64,000 nt of DNA. It comes from Acidimicrobiales bacterium (lineage in GTDB: Bacteria; Actinomycetota; Acidimicrobiia; Acidimicrobiales; UBA8592). The position numbers and the translations under genes were made by a program. How positions within the stretch are numbered: the first letter of the stretch is position 1; each line of letters starts with the position of its first letter. Positions 19,397-24,895 of the stretch are shown in pieces. The stretch is taken from contig JACERY010000002.1 in the NCBI GenBank assembly GCA_013912105.1, positions 62,001 to 126,000 on the forward strand, written 5' to 3'. Below the pieces are notes generated by a model. It was not told the DNA's origin. It searched no databases and saw only the letters and a program-made list of their open reading frames with translations.

Positions 19397-19471
19397 ATTT
19401 TCTTGAATTCCCTCCAAGCAGAAAGCCTTAGAATCGCTTAAACTCATCGTGCGACAGAAAGACAGGTGCCC

Positions 19472-19762
19472 ATGCCAGCAGAAACCCATATGGAACAAGA
19501 ACCGCTCGGAAGAGAACAGCTACTTCAACTTGTTAAAGATCGATTGGCTGAGATACTAGAAGTAGAGCCTAGCTCTATCAACGAAGGGGATTCCTTTGCA
19601 GATGATCTGGACGCTGATTCGCTGGCATTAATTGAGCTAGTTGAAGCTATCGAAGAAGAATTAGCGGAAAGGTCAATTGATTTTAGAATAGACGACGAGG
19701 ATTTAGAAGATCTAAAGAGCGTACGAGATGCGGTTGACTATGTGCATAGTAGGTTGGGTTAA
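19472..19762 (+). CDS. acpP: Acyl carrier protein
   Basis: DSFADDLDADSLALIELVEAIEEEL with phosphopantetheine DSL; between plsX and rnc. A GTG at 19466 is an alternative start. Confidence 0.95.
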   Translation: MPAETHMEQEPLGREQLLQLVKDRLAEILEVEPSSINEGDSFADDLDADSLALIELVEAIEEELAERSIDFRIDDEDLEDLKSVRDAVDYVHSRLG

Positions 19763-19770
19763 TTAAACCC

Positions 19771-20439
19771 TTGGACAGTGATCGCAGCGGAGATTTCTCC
19801 GCCAGAATTAATTATGAGTTCAAAGATCCAGAGCTTCTGCGTGTTGCTCTAACACATAAATCTTGGTCTGCTGAGAACAAAGGTTCAAAACCAAACGAAA
19901 AGTTAGAGTTTCTCGGAGATTCGGTTCTTGGGCTTATAGTTACAGAATATATTTTTAGAGAATACCCCGATTTAACAGAAGGCCAACTCTCTCTTCTTCG
20001 GTCAGTTGTTGTTGGGCATAACTGTCTTTCTAAGATTGCTGATGATCTTGAGTTGGGCTCATATCTAAAACTTGGGAATGCATCTGTTTCACCAGCCTTA
20101 CTAGAAGATGCCCTAGAAGCTGTAATCGGGGCAATCTATCTTGACGGTGGGTGGTCACAAGCAGAAGATTTTGTTTTAGAGATCCTAGAATCAAAGATCG
20201 ATGAATATTCAACTCAGAATAATGAAGATTATAAGAGCAGGCTAAAGATTATTTTTGAGCAGGAATTATCATCCACGCCTCGTTATAGCATCACAGCTGA
20301 CGGCCCAGATCATGAGAAACATTTCTATGCCACAATAAGTATTAATGGAGAAATTATCGGACAAGGTGAAGGCAGAAGTAAAAAAGAGGCAGAGCAATCA
20401 GCAGCCGGAGAAGCGTTGAAAAGATTTTCTAATGAATAA
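19771..20439 (+). CDS. rnc: Ribonuclease III
   Basis: NEKLEFLGDSVLGLIVTEYIF, EDALEAVIGAIYLDGG, C-terminal dsRBD GRSKKEAEQSAAGEALKRF. Confidence 0.96.
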   Translation: MDSDRSGDFSARINYEFKDPELLRVALTHKSWSAENKGSKPNEKLEFLGDSVLGLIVTEYIFREYPDLTEGQLSLLRSVVVGHNCLSKIADDLELGSYLKLGNASVSPALLEDALEAVIGAIYLDGGWSQAEDFVLEILESKIDEYSTQNNEDYKSRLKIIFEQELSSTPRYSITADGPDHEKHFYATISINGEIIGQGEGRSKKEAEQSAAGEALKRFSNE

Positions 20440-20493
20440 GATGCGAAAGAAACCGGTAAAATGCGGAATCACGATACTGGATTTAAGGAAAGA

Positions 20494-21336
20494 ATGATCG
20501 AACTCCCAGAAATTGAAACTATTCGAAGAGACTTAGAGCGCGATTGCGTTGGGAAAAAAGTTAAGTCGGTTGAAGTTCTAAAGACGAAAACAGTCGGTGG
20601 ACCAAAATCGAAAGCACTAATTGAAGCAGATCTCGATCAAACAAAAGTTGAGTCTGTCGGACGTATCGGAAAATTACTTAGGTTTGATTTCTCCAATGAC
20701 AAAAGTCTATTAGTAGGGCTAGGGACTGGCGGACAAATTCTTCGACTTCCAAATAAAGCAGAAATGCATGCGAAAACACAGTTCCTCATCACATTTACGC
20801 AGACTGGGCAAATGCGACTTTTGGATCATATCGGTGATGCTTCTGTATCTTTTCATGCGACAGAAGAAATAGCAGAGGATCGTCCAGAACTATTTGAATA
20901 TGGAATAGACCCGATAGAACACTCTCAACAGATAACTTGGGGGGATTTTGCCCACTACCTACATGCCAGAAAAGCCAAACTGAAAACACTACTCATAGAT
21001 GAGTCGTTTGTTATCGGGATCGGCCCAATGTATGCAGATGAAATTCTTTTCGAAGCTGGTCTTAAATACGATCGAGTTTCTGATTCGCTAACAACAAACG
21101 AAGTACGCAGACTATGGCAGGCAATTGTTCAAACCCTTTATGATGCTGTTAAATACCGGGGATCAACAATTGAAGGGAGCCTATTCGTTGATCCGAACGG
21201 GGAACCAGGGGTCTACCAAGACCATCATAGGGTGTTTCAGAAACATGGAGAACTGAGTCCAAGGTCGCGAAAACCAATCGTAAGATCTAAATTTGGTGGC
21301 ATCTGGACTTACTACTGCGAGCAAAGCCAAGTATAA
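20494..21336 (+). CDS. MutM/Fpg-like protein, apparently catalytically degenerate
   Basis: MIELPEIETIRRDLERDCVGKKVKSVEV... and GIGPMYADEILFEAGLKYDR align with Fpg, but Pro2, the DPRxFG-type motif, the distal Arg and three zinc-finger Cys are replaced. Start set at 20494 (SD aaggaaag). Confidence 0.82.
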   Translation: MIELPEIETIRRDLERDCVGKKVKSVEVLKTKTVGGPKSKALIEADLDQTKVESVGRIGKLLRFDFSNDKSLLVGLGTGGQILRLPNKAEMHAKTQFLITFTQTGQMRLLDHIGDASVSFHATEEIAEDRPELFEYGIDPIEHSQQITWGDFAHYLHARKAKLKTLLIDESFVIGIGPMYADEILFEAGLKYDRVSDSLTTNEVRRLWQAIVQTLYDAVKYRGSTIEGSLFVDPNGEPGVYQDHHRVFQKHGELSPRSRKPIVRSKFGGIWTYYCEQSQV

Positions 21337-21397: not shown

Positions 21398-24300
21398 GTG
21401 TTCTTGAAATCAATGACTCTTAAAGGATTCAAGTCTTTTGCTGAATCTACAACATTAGAATTTGAACCTGGGGTTACGGTTGTCGTGGGCCCCAATGGCA
21501 GCGGAAAATCAAATGTGGTCGATGCAGTCGCTTGGGTTTTGGGTGCGCAAGCACCAGGTGCCGTTCGGTCCCAAAAAATGGATGACGTAATTTTTGCTGG
21601 AACCGCTAAGCGCGCTGCACTGGGCCGCGCTGAAGTTTCATTAACAATTGATAATTCAGCAAAGGTTCTTCCACTTGATTTTAACGAAATCACTATAAGC
21701 CGAACTTTATTTAGAAATGGTGAAAGTGAATACGCTATGAATAGCGTCCCTTGCCGTCTTCTTGATATCCAGGATCTCCTCAGTGACTCAGGAGTTGGGC
21801 GACACCAGCACGTGATTGTTTCACAGGGTCAAATTGATGCCGTATTAAATGCCAAACCTGAAGATAGGCGCTCAATAATCGAAGAGGCTGCTGGAGTTTT
21901 GAAATATAGGAAACGAAGAGAAAAGTCAGAACGTAGGCTAAAGGCAACTGAGGAGAATATTACCAGACTGCAAGATTTGCTAAGGGAGGTTAGAAGGCAA
22001 CTAAAACCACTTGAACGTCAAGCAGATGCAGCTAGACGGCATGGTTCGTTATTTGATGAACTCACTGCATTACGACGGCATCTTGCTGGTAAAGAAATAA
22101 CGTCTTTACGTGAGGGGTTAAAAGCAGTTCAGGGGGCTAAAAAAGAAATTGAAACTACTGAACGAGATACCCGTTCAATGTTGTCCGGATTAGACAGTCA
22201 AATAGAAAAATCAGAAGAACAATTAGCAACGACTGGGGTAGATGCAGCAGCTGACAACCTAGCACAAACTGAAGGGCTTAAAGAACGAGCTAAAGGGCTA
22301 TCAGCACTACTAGCCGAACGAATAGGGAGCATTTATAGGCAAATGGAGATGCAGGTTGACCAGGGAGTTGTCGAGACTTTAGAAGCAGAAACTGCCAGGT
22401 TGCGTAAAGACTTAGAAGATTCGGCTATCTCGCGAGTTGAACTTGAACCGGCAACTAAGGAAGTAGCCGAAGCAGAGAAAGAACTAGAGCTTCAACGCTC
22501 GGATTTTCATGGCGGATTAAAAACAGAAGTAGAAAAACATGGAACAGCAGCTGCAGAGTCGCGTGGACAACTTGCAGTAATAAATGCAACTATTGAGAAT
22601 CTGCAAACGAAGATCGTTGAGTTGAGTACTGAACTCGCACAACAGAAACACGCAGAAAAAAATGGACTCATTAGGTCAGGGGATCTAAATGTCCAATTAG
22701 GCCTGATGGGTGATGCTAGAGACAAAGCAGAAGCTAGCTATAAGCAGATTGCAGAAGAAACTGAAAGACTTATTCAAAGCGTTGGCATTGCCCAGGAAAA
22801 ACGTGCAGAAGCCCAGCTAGAGAGTAAAGCTTGGGTTGCTCGCGCTGATGCGTTATCGCTAGCTCTGGATGAGACGAGAAAATTAAGCGGTATTGAAGAA
22901 GTCTCAGGTATGGACGGTGTTCTCGGTTCACTATTAGAATTAATTAGCATTGATGAGGGGTGGGAAGCAGCAGTTGAATCAGCGGTTGGATATTTTGCTG
23001 CTTCGGTTATCGTAAGTGACGTTGAAACAGCTAAAGAAGCCCTAAGGAAACTTCTGGATTCCGGGCGTTCCGGAGGGGTTATTGTTACTCCTAACACTGT
23101 GCAATCGAAGGCCCCGCAAAGCACACTTAGAGAGCACGTCCATTCCGACTCTTCAGAGATAGAAGCTCTTCTTGATAACTTTATCGGGCAAACACAAGTC
23201 GTTTCAGACTGGGGAATTGGAGTAGAGAAATCACTTCTATCGCCAGAAAGTATCTTTGTAACTATGCAAGGCGATCATTTCAGTCCCCATGGGTGGAGGG
23301 TAGGCGCTGCAGGCACTGGAGCAACCGGAAGTGCTCTTGACGAAGCTATAGAAAAATCCCAAGAAGCATTGGGAACGGTTCGGCTAAGAGAACAAGAATT
23401 TGAAAAATGCCAGCGCGATTTAGCGCAATCGAATAGGAATCTTGTCGCTTCCGAAGAAGCATTGGTTCAAGCAAAACGAGATTTTGATGAAATTAAGGAA
23501 GTGAAATCAAGAACTGAAAGTGATCTTCGTGCCTTACGCGTAGAAATAGATAGTCTGGAGAAACAAGAGGTTTCTCTAAAGGAAAATATTGAAGAACAGA
23601 TTCTTTCCCAAACACGTCTTGTAGGGGAACTGCCAGAATTGGAGACTCACGAGAGAGAAGCTCTGGAAAGAACTAAATCTGCTGAAAAGAGAAGGCAAGA
23701 GTTAGATAGAAAAGCAGCTCAGATAGGGGCTAAGAGAACAGCGGTAGATGTCCAAATTGCCTCGATCCAAGAAAGAGAAAATTTTCTGCAAGGAAGGCTC
23801 CGAGAGATTGAAGATCGTCTTAATGGCTATACAGATCAACGAAGTGAGGCTGAATCTAGAAGGCTCACATTAGAGAAAAGACTTCGTCTCTCCCAATTCC
23901 TGAAGACAATAGTAGAAGAGAAGTCTTCAAAGGTTGAAATAGAACTTCAAGAACTGCGACGACTTCGACAGGAACAATCAAATTCAGCTCAAATAGCTGT
24001 GGAACAACTTGAAAAATTCAGGAATCAACGATCAGAGAACGAAAAAAAATTAAGTCAGTTGCGTGAAGAACTCCATAGATCTGACCTTAAGGAATCTGAG
24101 TACACGTTGAAGTTAGAGGCACTAACAGAGACAGTAAGAAGAGAGTTAGATTGCGAACCAAGAACTGCGGTCATTACAGATTGTCCTCCACTGGAAGGGA
24201 TATCAGCGAAAGCGCGCGTTAGAGAGTTAGAAAGAGAACTCAAAATCATGGGGCCGATCAATCCTCTCGCTCTTGAAGAATATGAAGAGCTAAATGAACG

Positions 24301-24895
24301 CTTTGAGTTTCTGCAGGCTCAGTTAGAAGATGTCCGAGGGTCTAGACGTGAACTAAACAAGGTCATTAAAGCAATTGATCATGAAATCGTTGCGGTTTTC
24401 TCCGCTGCCTATGCAGATATTAGTACGAATTTTGAAAATCTCTTTTCGTCACTTTTTCCTGGTGGAGAAGGGGCCCTCAAGTTAACAGAACCGAACAATT
24501 TGCTACAGACAGGAATTGAGATAGAGGCAAAACCTTCTGGGAAAAACATCAAAAAGTTATCTTTGCTATCCGGCGGTGAGCGTTCGCTTACCTCTCTGGC
24601 ATTTCTTTTCGCAATTTTCCGAAGCAGGCCTTCGCCATTTTATGTAATGGATGAGGTGGAAGCCGCTTTAGATGATGTCAATCTTCAACGATTCCTGCAG
24701 TTGGTGAAGGAATTTAGAGATGAAGCGCAGTTGATTATCGTGAGCCACCAGAAGCGAACCATGGAAACCGCCGATTGCTTATATGGGGTCACTATGAAAC
24801 CGGGCGGATCATCAAAGATTATTAGTGAAAAACCAGAGATTGAAAATAGAAATTCACTTTTCGAGATGGCCGACGCAAAGATAGGTAAAGCCTAA
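21398..24895 (+). CDS. smc: Chromosome segregation protein SMC
   Basis: LKGFKSFAESTTLEFEPGVTVVVGPNGSGKSNVVDAVAWVLG, coiled coils, hinge, KLSLLSGGERSLTSLAFLFAIF, YVMDEVEAALDDVN. Confidence 0.98.
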   Translation: MFLKSMTLKGFKSFAESTTLEFEPGVTVVVGPNGSGKSNVVDAVAWVLGAQAPGAVRSQKMDDVIFAGTAKRAALGRAEVSLTIDNSAKVLPLDFNEITISRTLFRNGESEYAMNSVPCRLLDIQDLLSDSGVGRHQHVIVSQGQIDAVLNAKPEDRRSIIEEAAGVLKYRKRREKSERRLKATEENITRLQDLLREVRRQLKPLERQADAARRHGSLFDELTALRRHLAGKEITSLREGLKAVQGAKKEIETTERDTRSMLSGLDSQIEKSEEQLATTGVDAAADNLAQTEGLKERAKGLSALLAERIGSIYRQMEMQVDQGVVETLEAETARLRKDLEDSAISRVELEPATKEVAEAEKELELQRSDFHGGLKTEVEKHGTAAAESRGQLAVINATIENLQTKIVELSTELAQQKHAEKNGLIRSGDLNVQLGLMGDARDKAEASYKQIAEETERLIQSVGIAQEKRAEAQLESKAWVARADALSLALDETRKLSGIEEVSGMDGVLGSLLELISIDEGWEAAVESAVGYFAASVIVSDVETAKEALRKLLDSGRSGGVIVTPNTVQSKAPQSTLREHVHSDSSEIEALLDNFIGQTQVVSDWGIGVEKSLLSPESIFVTMQGDHFSPHGWRVGAAGTGATGSALDEAIEKSQEALGTVRLREQEFEKCQRDLAQSNRNLVASEEALVQAKRDFDEIKEVKSRTESDLRALRVEIDSLEKQEVSLKENIEEQILSQTRLVGELPELETHEREALERTKSAEKRRQELDRKAAQIGAKRTAVDVQIASIQERENFLQGRLREIEDRLNGYTDQRSEAESRRLTLEKRLRLSQFLKTIVEEKSSKVEIELQELRRLRQEQSNSAQIAVEQLEKFRNQRSENEKKLSQLREELHRSDLKESEYTLKLEALTETVRRELDCEPRTAVITDCPPLEGISAKARVRELERELKIMGPINPLALEEYEELNERFEFLQAQLEDVRGSRRELNKVIKAIDHEIVAVFSAAYADISTNFENLFSSLFPGGEGALKLTEPNNLLQTGIEIEAKPSGKNIKKLSLLSGGERSLTSLAFLFAIFRSRPSPFYVMDEVEAALDDVNLQRFLQLVKEFRDEAQLIIVSHQKRTMETADCLYGVTMKPGGSSKIISEKPEIENRNSLFEMADAKIGKA

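Follow-up and report, generated by a model that had tools for sequence, protein, structure and literature searches.

A Non-Catalytic-Looking MutM Under Purifying Selection at the rnc-smc Locus of Acidimicrobiales and Other Actinomycetota

Introduction

The closest described relatives of the protein reported here are the canonical bacterial Fpg/MutM enzymes (TIGR00577; E. coli, L. lactis, G. stearothermophilus), to which it is homologous over its full length, with a predicted fold that agrees at a TM of about 0.9, and with which it shares the rnc-mutM-smc position and the H2TH core. Unlike them, it has no Pro2, R259, zinc site or probing triad, has lost most of the phosphate clamp, and scores below the cut-off of the family model. 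In the zincless-finger Fpg/Nei proteins (NEIL1, plant and fungal Nei, mimivirus) the C-terminal finger likewise has no set of four zinc cysteines, and this finger has been described as filling the role of the zinc finger (PMC3188539). Those proteins keep catalysis, however, whereas in the present protein the active site is gone too, and several of the lineages described below lost the active site while the zinc cysteines stayed.

Non-catalytic glycosylase paralogs are known as AlkF/AlkG, AlkD2 and the fission yeast protein Mag2 (PMC4433238). In these a glycosylase fold without excision activity occurs beside an active paralog; here, judged from sequence, the paralog looks active and the protein of interest appears not to excise. 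The superfamilies are unrelated, though, and in our case it is the ancestral locus copy itself that repeatedly lost its catalytic residues alongside a second Fpg. Fpg2 of M. tuberculosis (Rv0944) is, to our knowledge, not the copy at the rnc-smc locus. It is likewise an Fpg-family protein without N-terminal catalytic residues, but is N-terminally truncated in that species and complete in relatives (PMC2734929). A literature search found no paper describing stripped Fpg proteins of the present kind.

In this paper we describe a mutM ortholog in a 64,000-nucleotide stretch of an Acidimicrobiales genome (contig JACERY010000002.1, forward strand; hereafter the window), compare it with its orthologs in Actinomycetota, and relate its state to the other Fpg proteins of the same genomes.

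Methods

Residues were numbered as in E. coli (Met = 1) and 13 defining residues were scored in each locus copy; a copy in which many of these are lost is called stripped. The roles given to DNA-contact residues follow established Fpg biochemistry. A second Fpg was assigned in the first set of genomes to the type found in the window's genome (L001 type) at an identity of at least 49%. Because of their shared losses, stripped proteins are drawn together in ordinary trees; the trait columns were masked for the trees testing origins.

Results

The gene stands between rnc and smc, as originally predicted (Table 1), and the order acpP-rnc-mutM-smc was retained almost everywhere when the locus was fetched from about 60 further genomes. 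The first position of the open reading frame is favoured as the start over the in-frame ATG at 20461 because of the AAGGAA that precedes it.

Table 1. Features of the mutM locus, in positions of the window
Feature	Position	Strand	Remark
acpP-like acyl carrier protein gene, upstream	19466..19762	+	
rnc (RNase III), upstream neighbour	19771..20439	+	the same neighbour in relatives of either state, canonical or stripped
AAGGAA, likely ribosome-binding site for the ATG at 20494	20485..20490	+	judged from sequence
Stripped MutM/Fpg ortholog, 280 aa	20494..21336	+	intact open ORF; alternative start 20461
Ile2 replacing the Pro2 nucleophile	20497..20499	+	
Lys60 (= E. coli K57)	20671..20673	+	the window's subgroup keeps it; the sister subgroup of the genus has Met
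DHIGDA replacing DPR(T/R)FG; R109 and F111 of the DNA-probing triad gone	20824..20841	+	
Pro178 replacing the phosphate-binding Asn (E. coli 169 with Met) in GIGPMYADE	21025..21027	+	
C-terminal hairpin ELSPRSRKPIVRSKFGGIWTYYCEQSQV, remodelled zinc finger, one Cys left	21250..21333	+	conserved throughout the order's stripped clade
smc, downstream neighbour	21398..24895	+	

The claim that nearly all catalytic and zinc-binding residues are gone held up in the alignment, where 10 of the 13 defining residues are absent and only E3, K57 and C264 are kept. Each of the motif changes that had been read from the sequence was seen: Ile for the N-terminal Pro (P2 to I), an altered DPRxFG segment (R109 to I, F111 to D), Pro at the N169 position of GIGNIYxDE, and the loss of three of the four zinc cysteines (C244S, C247S, C267S) together with the distal Arg (R259I). 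The phosphate-binding residues H71, N169 and R259 are thus G, P and I, and the probing residues M74, R109 and F111 are T, I and D. Three residues that the earlier reading did not mention, E3, K57 and D107, are still present, and some residual chemistry is possible since E3 and K57 are kept.

The fold, by contrast with these residues, is predicted to be intact. The protein matches the Pfam families Fapy_DNA_glyco (E 1.3e-19) and H2TH (2.6e-18), and it matches the TIGR00577 Fpg equivalog model over its full length but at 165.8 bits against a cut-off of 203.3, where a canonical locus copy scores 283.8 and the L001 type 248.7 bits. An AlphaFold2 model from an alignment with 74 orthologs has a mean pLDDT of 94.7 and a pTM of 0.90; the protein's nearest solved relatives are MutM/Fpg, and Foldseek gives the model TM values of 0.88-0.91 against solved MutM entries. 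From profile matches and model, the protein belongs to the Fpg/Nei superfamily, with an N-terminal Fapy_DNA_glyco domain, an H2TH domain and a predicted Fpg fold.

A full-length ortholog was matched in 16 of the 17 genomes of the window's genus, and all are stripped; the same lesions recur in two further genera of its family. Across the order, 61 copies are stripped and keep 1-3 of the 13 residues, 11 are intermediate (5-9 residues, with the four cysteines in all 11), and 35 are canonical, 33 of them with 13/13; of the other two, L046 is truncated at the 5' end and L083 is without N169 only. Relatives with Pro2 and all four cysteines at this locus, which the original prediction took as a sign of assembly error or recent decay, were found among distant relatives only, the close relatives being stripped. 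These canonical copies are the ancestral state, and shared states in independent genomes together with low dN/dS rule out both assembly error and recent decay.

Pairwise dN/dS within the window's genus is 0.017-0.06, with a summary range of 0.02-0.075 for the gene, close to that of smc and mostly below that of rnc, and this marks the gene as encoding a selected protein. Over all stripped lineages tested the range is 0.017-0.087, one pair with saturated dS having been set aside, so that evolution is not neutral but under strong purifying selection in every one. The stripped copies of the order also share conserved features of their own, S255-P256-R-S258, W271, Y273 and H244, of which W271, S255 and Y273 are conserved over about 20 families. 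From these sequence comparisons, stripped MutM is a non-catalytic-looking protein under selection.

The losses follow one pattern. Every stripped group loses the phosphate-clamp positions K57, H71 and N169 (K57 is kept, unusually, by the subgroup of the window), the probing and void-filling residues M74, R109 and F111, a conserved Arg near position 32, and Q161; N169 has become Pro in several separate lineages. Retained are L4-P5-E6, E8, R54, the H2TH GxG, Y171, D173, E174, R185, R196/197 and C264. Pro2 and the zinc cysteines are lost only in some stripped lineages, later or never, and therefore it is DNA-lesion engagement that was released first. Stripped copies have a lower net charge than canonical ones (-2.9 against +6.3 in the order, -7.7 against +8.4 in the other class); the drop is slight in family f72, and f72 and f65 stay near +4 to +5.

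In the unmasked tree the stripped copies form one group nested inside canonical MutM, and a flanking-gene tree, weakly resolved, matches the MutM tree in outline. With trait columns masked, the f72 stripped copies group with the canonical copies of their own class, those of the other class stand apart from the Acidimicrobiia stripped copies, and at least five changes to the stripped state, in two classes, are needed. The single origin suggested by the unmasked trees is rejected with masked columns (p-AU 8.1e-5, L041 left out). From these trees, the stripped state arose several times independently in Actinomycetota.

The window's genome, a 1.9 Mb MAG, holds three more Fpg/Nei-family genes, two Nei-like and one a fully canonical Fpg (P0002, L001) with MPELPEVE, RGKY, HLGMTGQL, DVRRFGR, AGVGNIYADE, four cysteines and the distal Arg; the second canonical mutM sought since the original prediction is therefore present. 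Among the 79 genomes of the first set, this L001 type occurs in 41/45 with a stripped locus (the exceptions are G024 and G077, which are least stripped, G036 and G145) and in 0/34 with a canonical one. The class set gives 39 of 47 stripped loci, leaving eight without it, against 0 of 55 canonical loci. Within family f72, from another order of the class, 7/7 stripped copies (6-7/13) are accompanied by the L001 type, and the 4/4 canonical copies (13/13) lack it; in family f65 the locus is stripped and the second Fpg is of another kind (L242-L245), its active site being otherwise canonical.

A phylum-wide search for L001-type genes gave a match in 49 of 298 genomes, a few of them not of the type by tree; L307/L308, matched by the L001 query, fell outside it in this way. 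In other classes, the L001-positive genomes with an rnc-locus ortholog are stripped in 25/25 and in a further 15/15 cases (0-8/13). Rnc-flanked loci there have the L001 type in 40/43 stripped against 0/33 canonical cases, the latter including 18 without the Pro2 codon and with the rest kept. The three stripped loci without it are in G494, G680 (68% complete) and G563, which has a broken L001-type fragment (L394). L361, another apparent exception, is cut by a contig end.

Combined, 79/79 scored L001-positive genomes are stripped and 88/88 canonical-locus genomes are L001-negative, counts that are not independent, since by tree they come down to few independent pairs, too few for a formal independent-pairs test. 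The association of the stripped locus with the L001 type, read from these sequences, is accordingly strong in pattern and not in a formal phylogenetic test. Eleven stripped-locus genomes are without the L001 type, among them the early or partial L041 and L101; stripping therefore does not strictly depend on the second Fpg. The L001-type tree is one clade with class-level subclades; its history may be one of repeated gain, or of an ancient gene lost where MutM stayed canonical.

Discussion

MutM is a textbook single-purpose repair enzyme, and the stripped copies suggest that it has an additional job. The gene in the window is probably the MutM of the rnc-mutM-smc locus, inherited vertically and turned non-catalytic. 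The reading we prefer, and consider likely though well short of assured, is that this non-catalytic MutM was kept for a separate job after another Fpg took the glycosylase work. A second Fpg of the L001 type would take over 8-oxoG/Fapy excision and so free the locus copy from catalytic constraint; the locus copy would then be kept for a MutM job that needs the fold with its H2TH core and C-terminal hairpin and does not need base flipping. The likeliest such job would be to bind a protein partner, or to hold nucleic acid without recognising lesions, with the conserved H2TH/C-terminal hairpin as the proposed binding face. The original suggestion, that the gene is not decaying but selected for a non-enzymatic role, is in keeping with the purifying selection and the intact predicted fold, and is backed further by the canonical second Fpg and the two Nei-like proteins of the genome.

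A wider proposal, which we make tentatively and would lean slightly against, is that the rnc-smc MutM of Actinomycetota has an ancestral, excision-independent second function, present also in canonical MutM; whenever another Fpg took over excision, the catalytic residues would erode and this function alone would preserve the gene, about five or more independent times. That MutM at this locus had the additional job from the start would be the simplest general form of our reading. Convergent, repeated loss, a gene kept under selection and a replacement enzyme amount to a natural separation-of-function experiment; stripped MutM predicts a hidden role that is testable in laboratory actinobacteria. 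Of the Actinomycetota genes annotated as formamidopyrimidine-DNA glycosylase, many may encode no glycosylase.

Neither of the particular roles first put forward fares well. It is unlikely that the protein senses lesions as known MutM does, since in each lineage the phosphate clamp and the probing residues are the first to go, and adjacency to smc is no evidence for a role in chromosome structure because the neighbourhood predates the change and canonical copies sit there too.

The protein might instead bind DNA or RNA structures with a new specificity (AP-site shielding, branched DNA), using the fold and no catalysis as AlkF/AlkG or Mag2 do. The H2TH core and K155 are kept (60/61 of the order's stripped copies), a different glycosylase superfamily offers precedents (PMC4433238), and the drop in charge is not uniform, as families f72 and f65 show. 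We nevertheless judge this unlikely: no lineage keeps H71 or N169, K57 is gone in nearly all and R259 in many, and strong DNA binding is disfavoured by the shift in net charge (about +6 to -3 for the order, +8 to -8 for the other class). Near one-to-one co-occurrence would suit an inactive regulatory partner of the L001-type Fpg, evolving only where that enzyme occurs, but Fpg proteins generally act as monomers and the locus is stripped without the L001 type in two species of genus g57 (G073, G145) and in G494, which makes such a partner improbable. It is more improbable again that the protein is still an enzyme with altered chemistry, through E3/K57 or the N-terminal Met amine; both residues are present in the window protein, and NEIL3 uses Val2, but most stripped relatives have Met, Leu, Thr or another residue at the K57 position, several have Q, F or A in place of E3, and no common candidate catalytic residue stands in as replacement. 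That the gene is a decaying redundant paralog held only by operon position is scarcely credible, despite the second Fpg and the missing active-site residues, given a dN/dS of 0.02-0.09 in all tested stripped lineages, intact ORFs, conservation of the new residues across about 20 families, and a sole broken locus copy (L070, in G030) that is not a stripped one but a canonical gene split by a frameshift that looks like, and probably is, an assembly error.

Several other features of the Fpg complement were seen. In the window's genus the second Fpg (L001, G000:C1:72949-73737) is usually flanked by PD-(D/E)XK-like nuclease and nucleoside-hydrolase-like genes, and the sole MutY match in the window's genome (L280, G000:C5:5622-6224) is sub-threshold, at 220.9 against 286.5 bits. 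G494 (family f115; 2.1 Mb, 96% complete) is without a recognisable Fpg/Nei enzyme, as its sole H2TH protein is a 0/13 MutM (L362). A third Fpg-like family occurs in several Acidimicrobiia (L246-L253), starting MPE[LM]P[EQ][MVI]xA or xS, most with GVGRGY[AST]DD replacing GNIY, and with the C-terminus ...YCPxCQTGGKVLADRRLSRLVK.

Two further variants were seen. L196 (G402, family f86) has a canonical active site and no zinc cysteine set (C247T, C264S, C267 absent), the reverse order of loss. In another class, the rnc-locus MutM of families f98, f132 and f135 (L314-L318, L320, L322-L324, L326-L328, L330-L335) starts M/V-ELPEVEV, the Pro2 codon being absent and the start codon followed by GAG/GAA, with nearly all other key residues intact; these genomes are without an L001-type Fpg, and their MutM is possibly an active enzyme that uses another N-terminal nucleophile.
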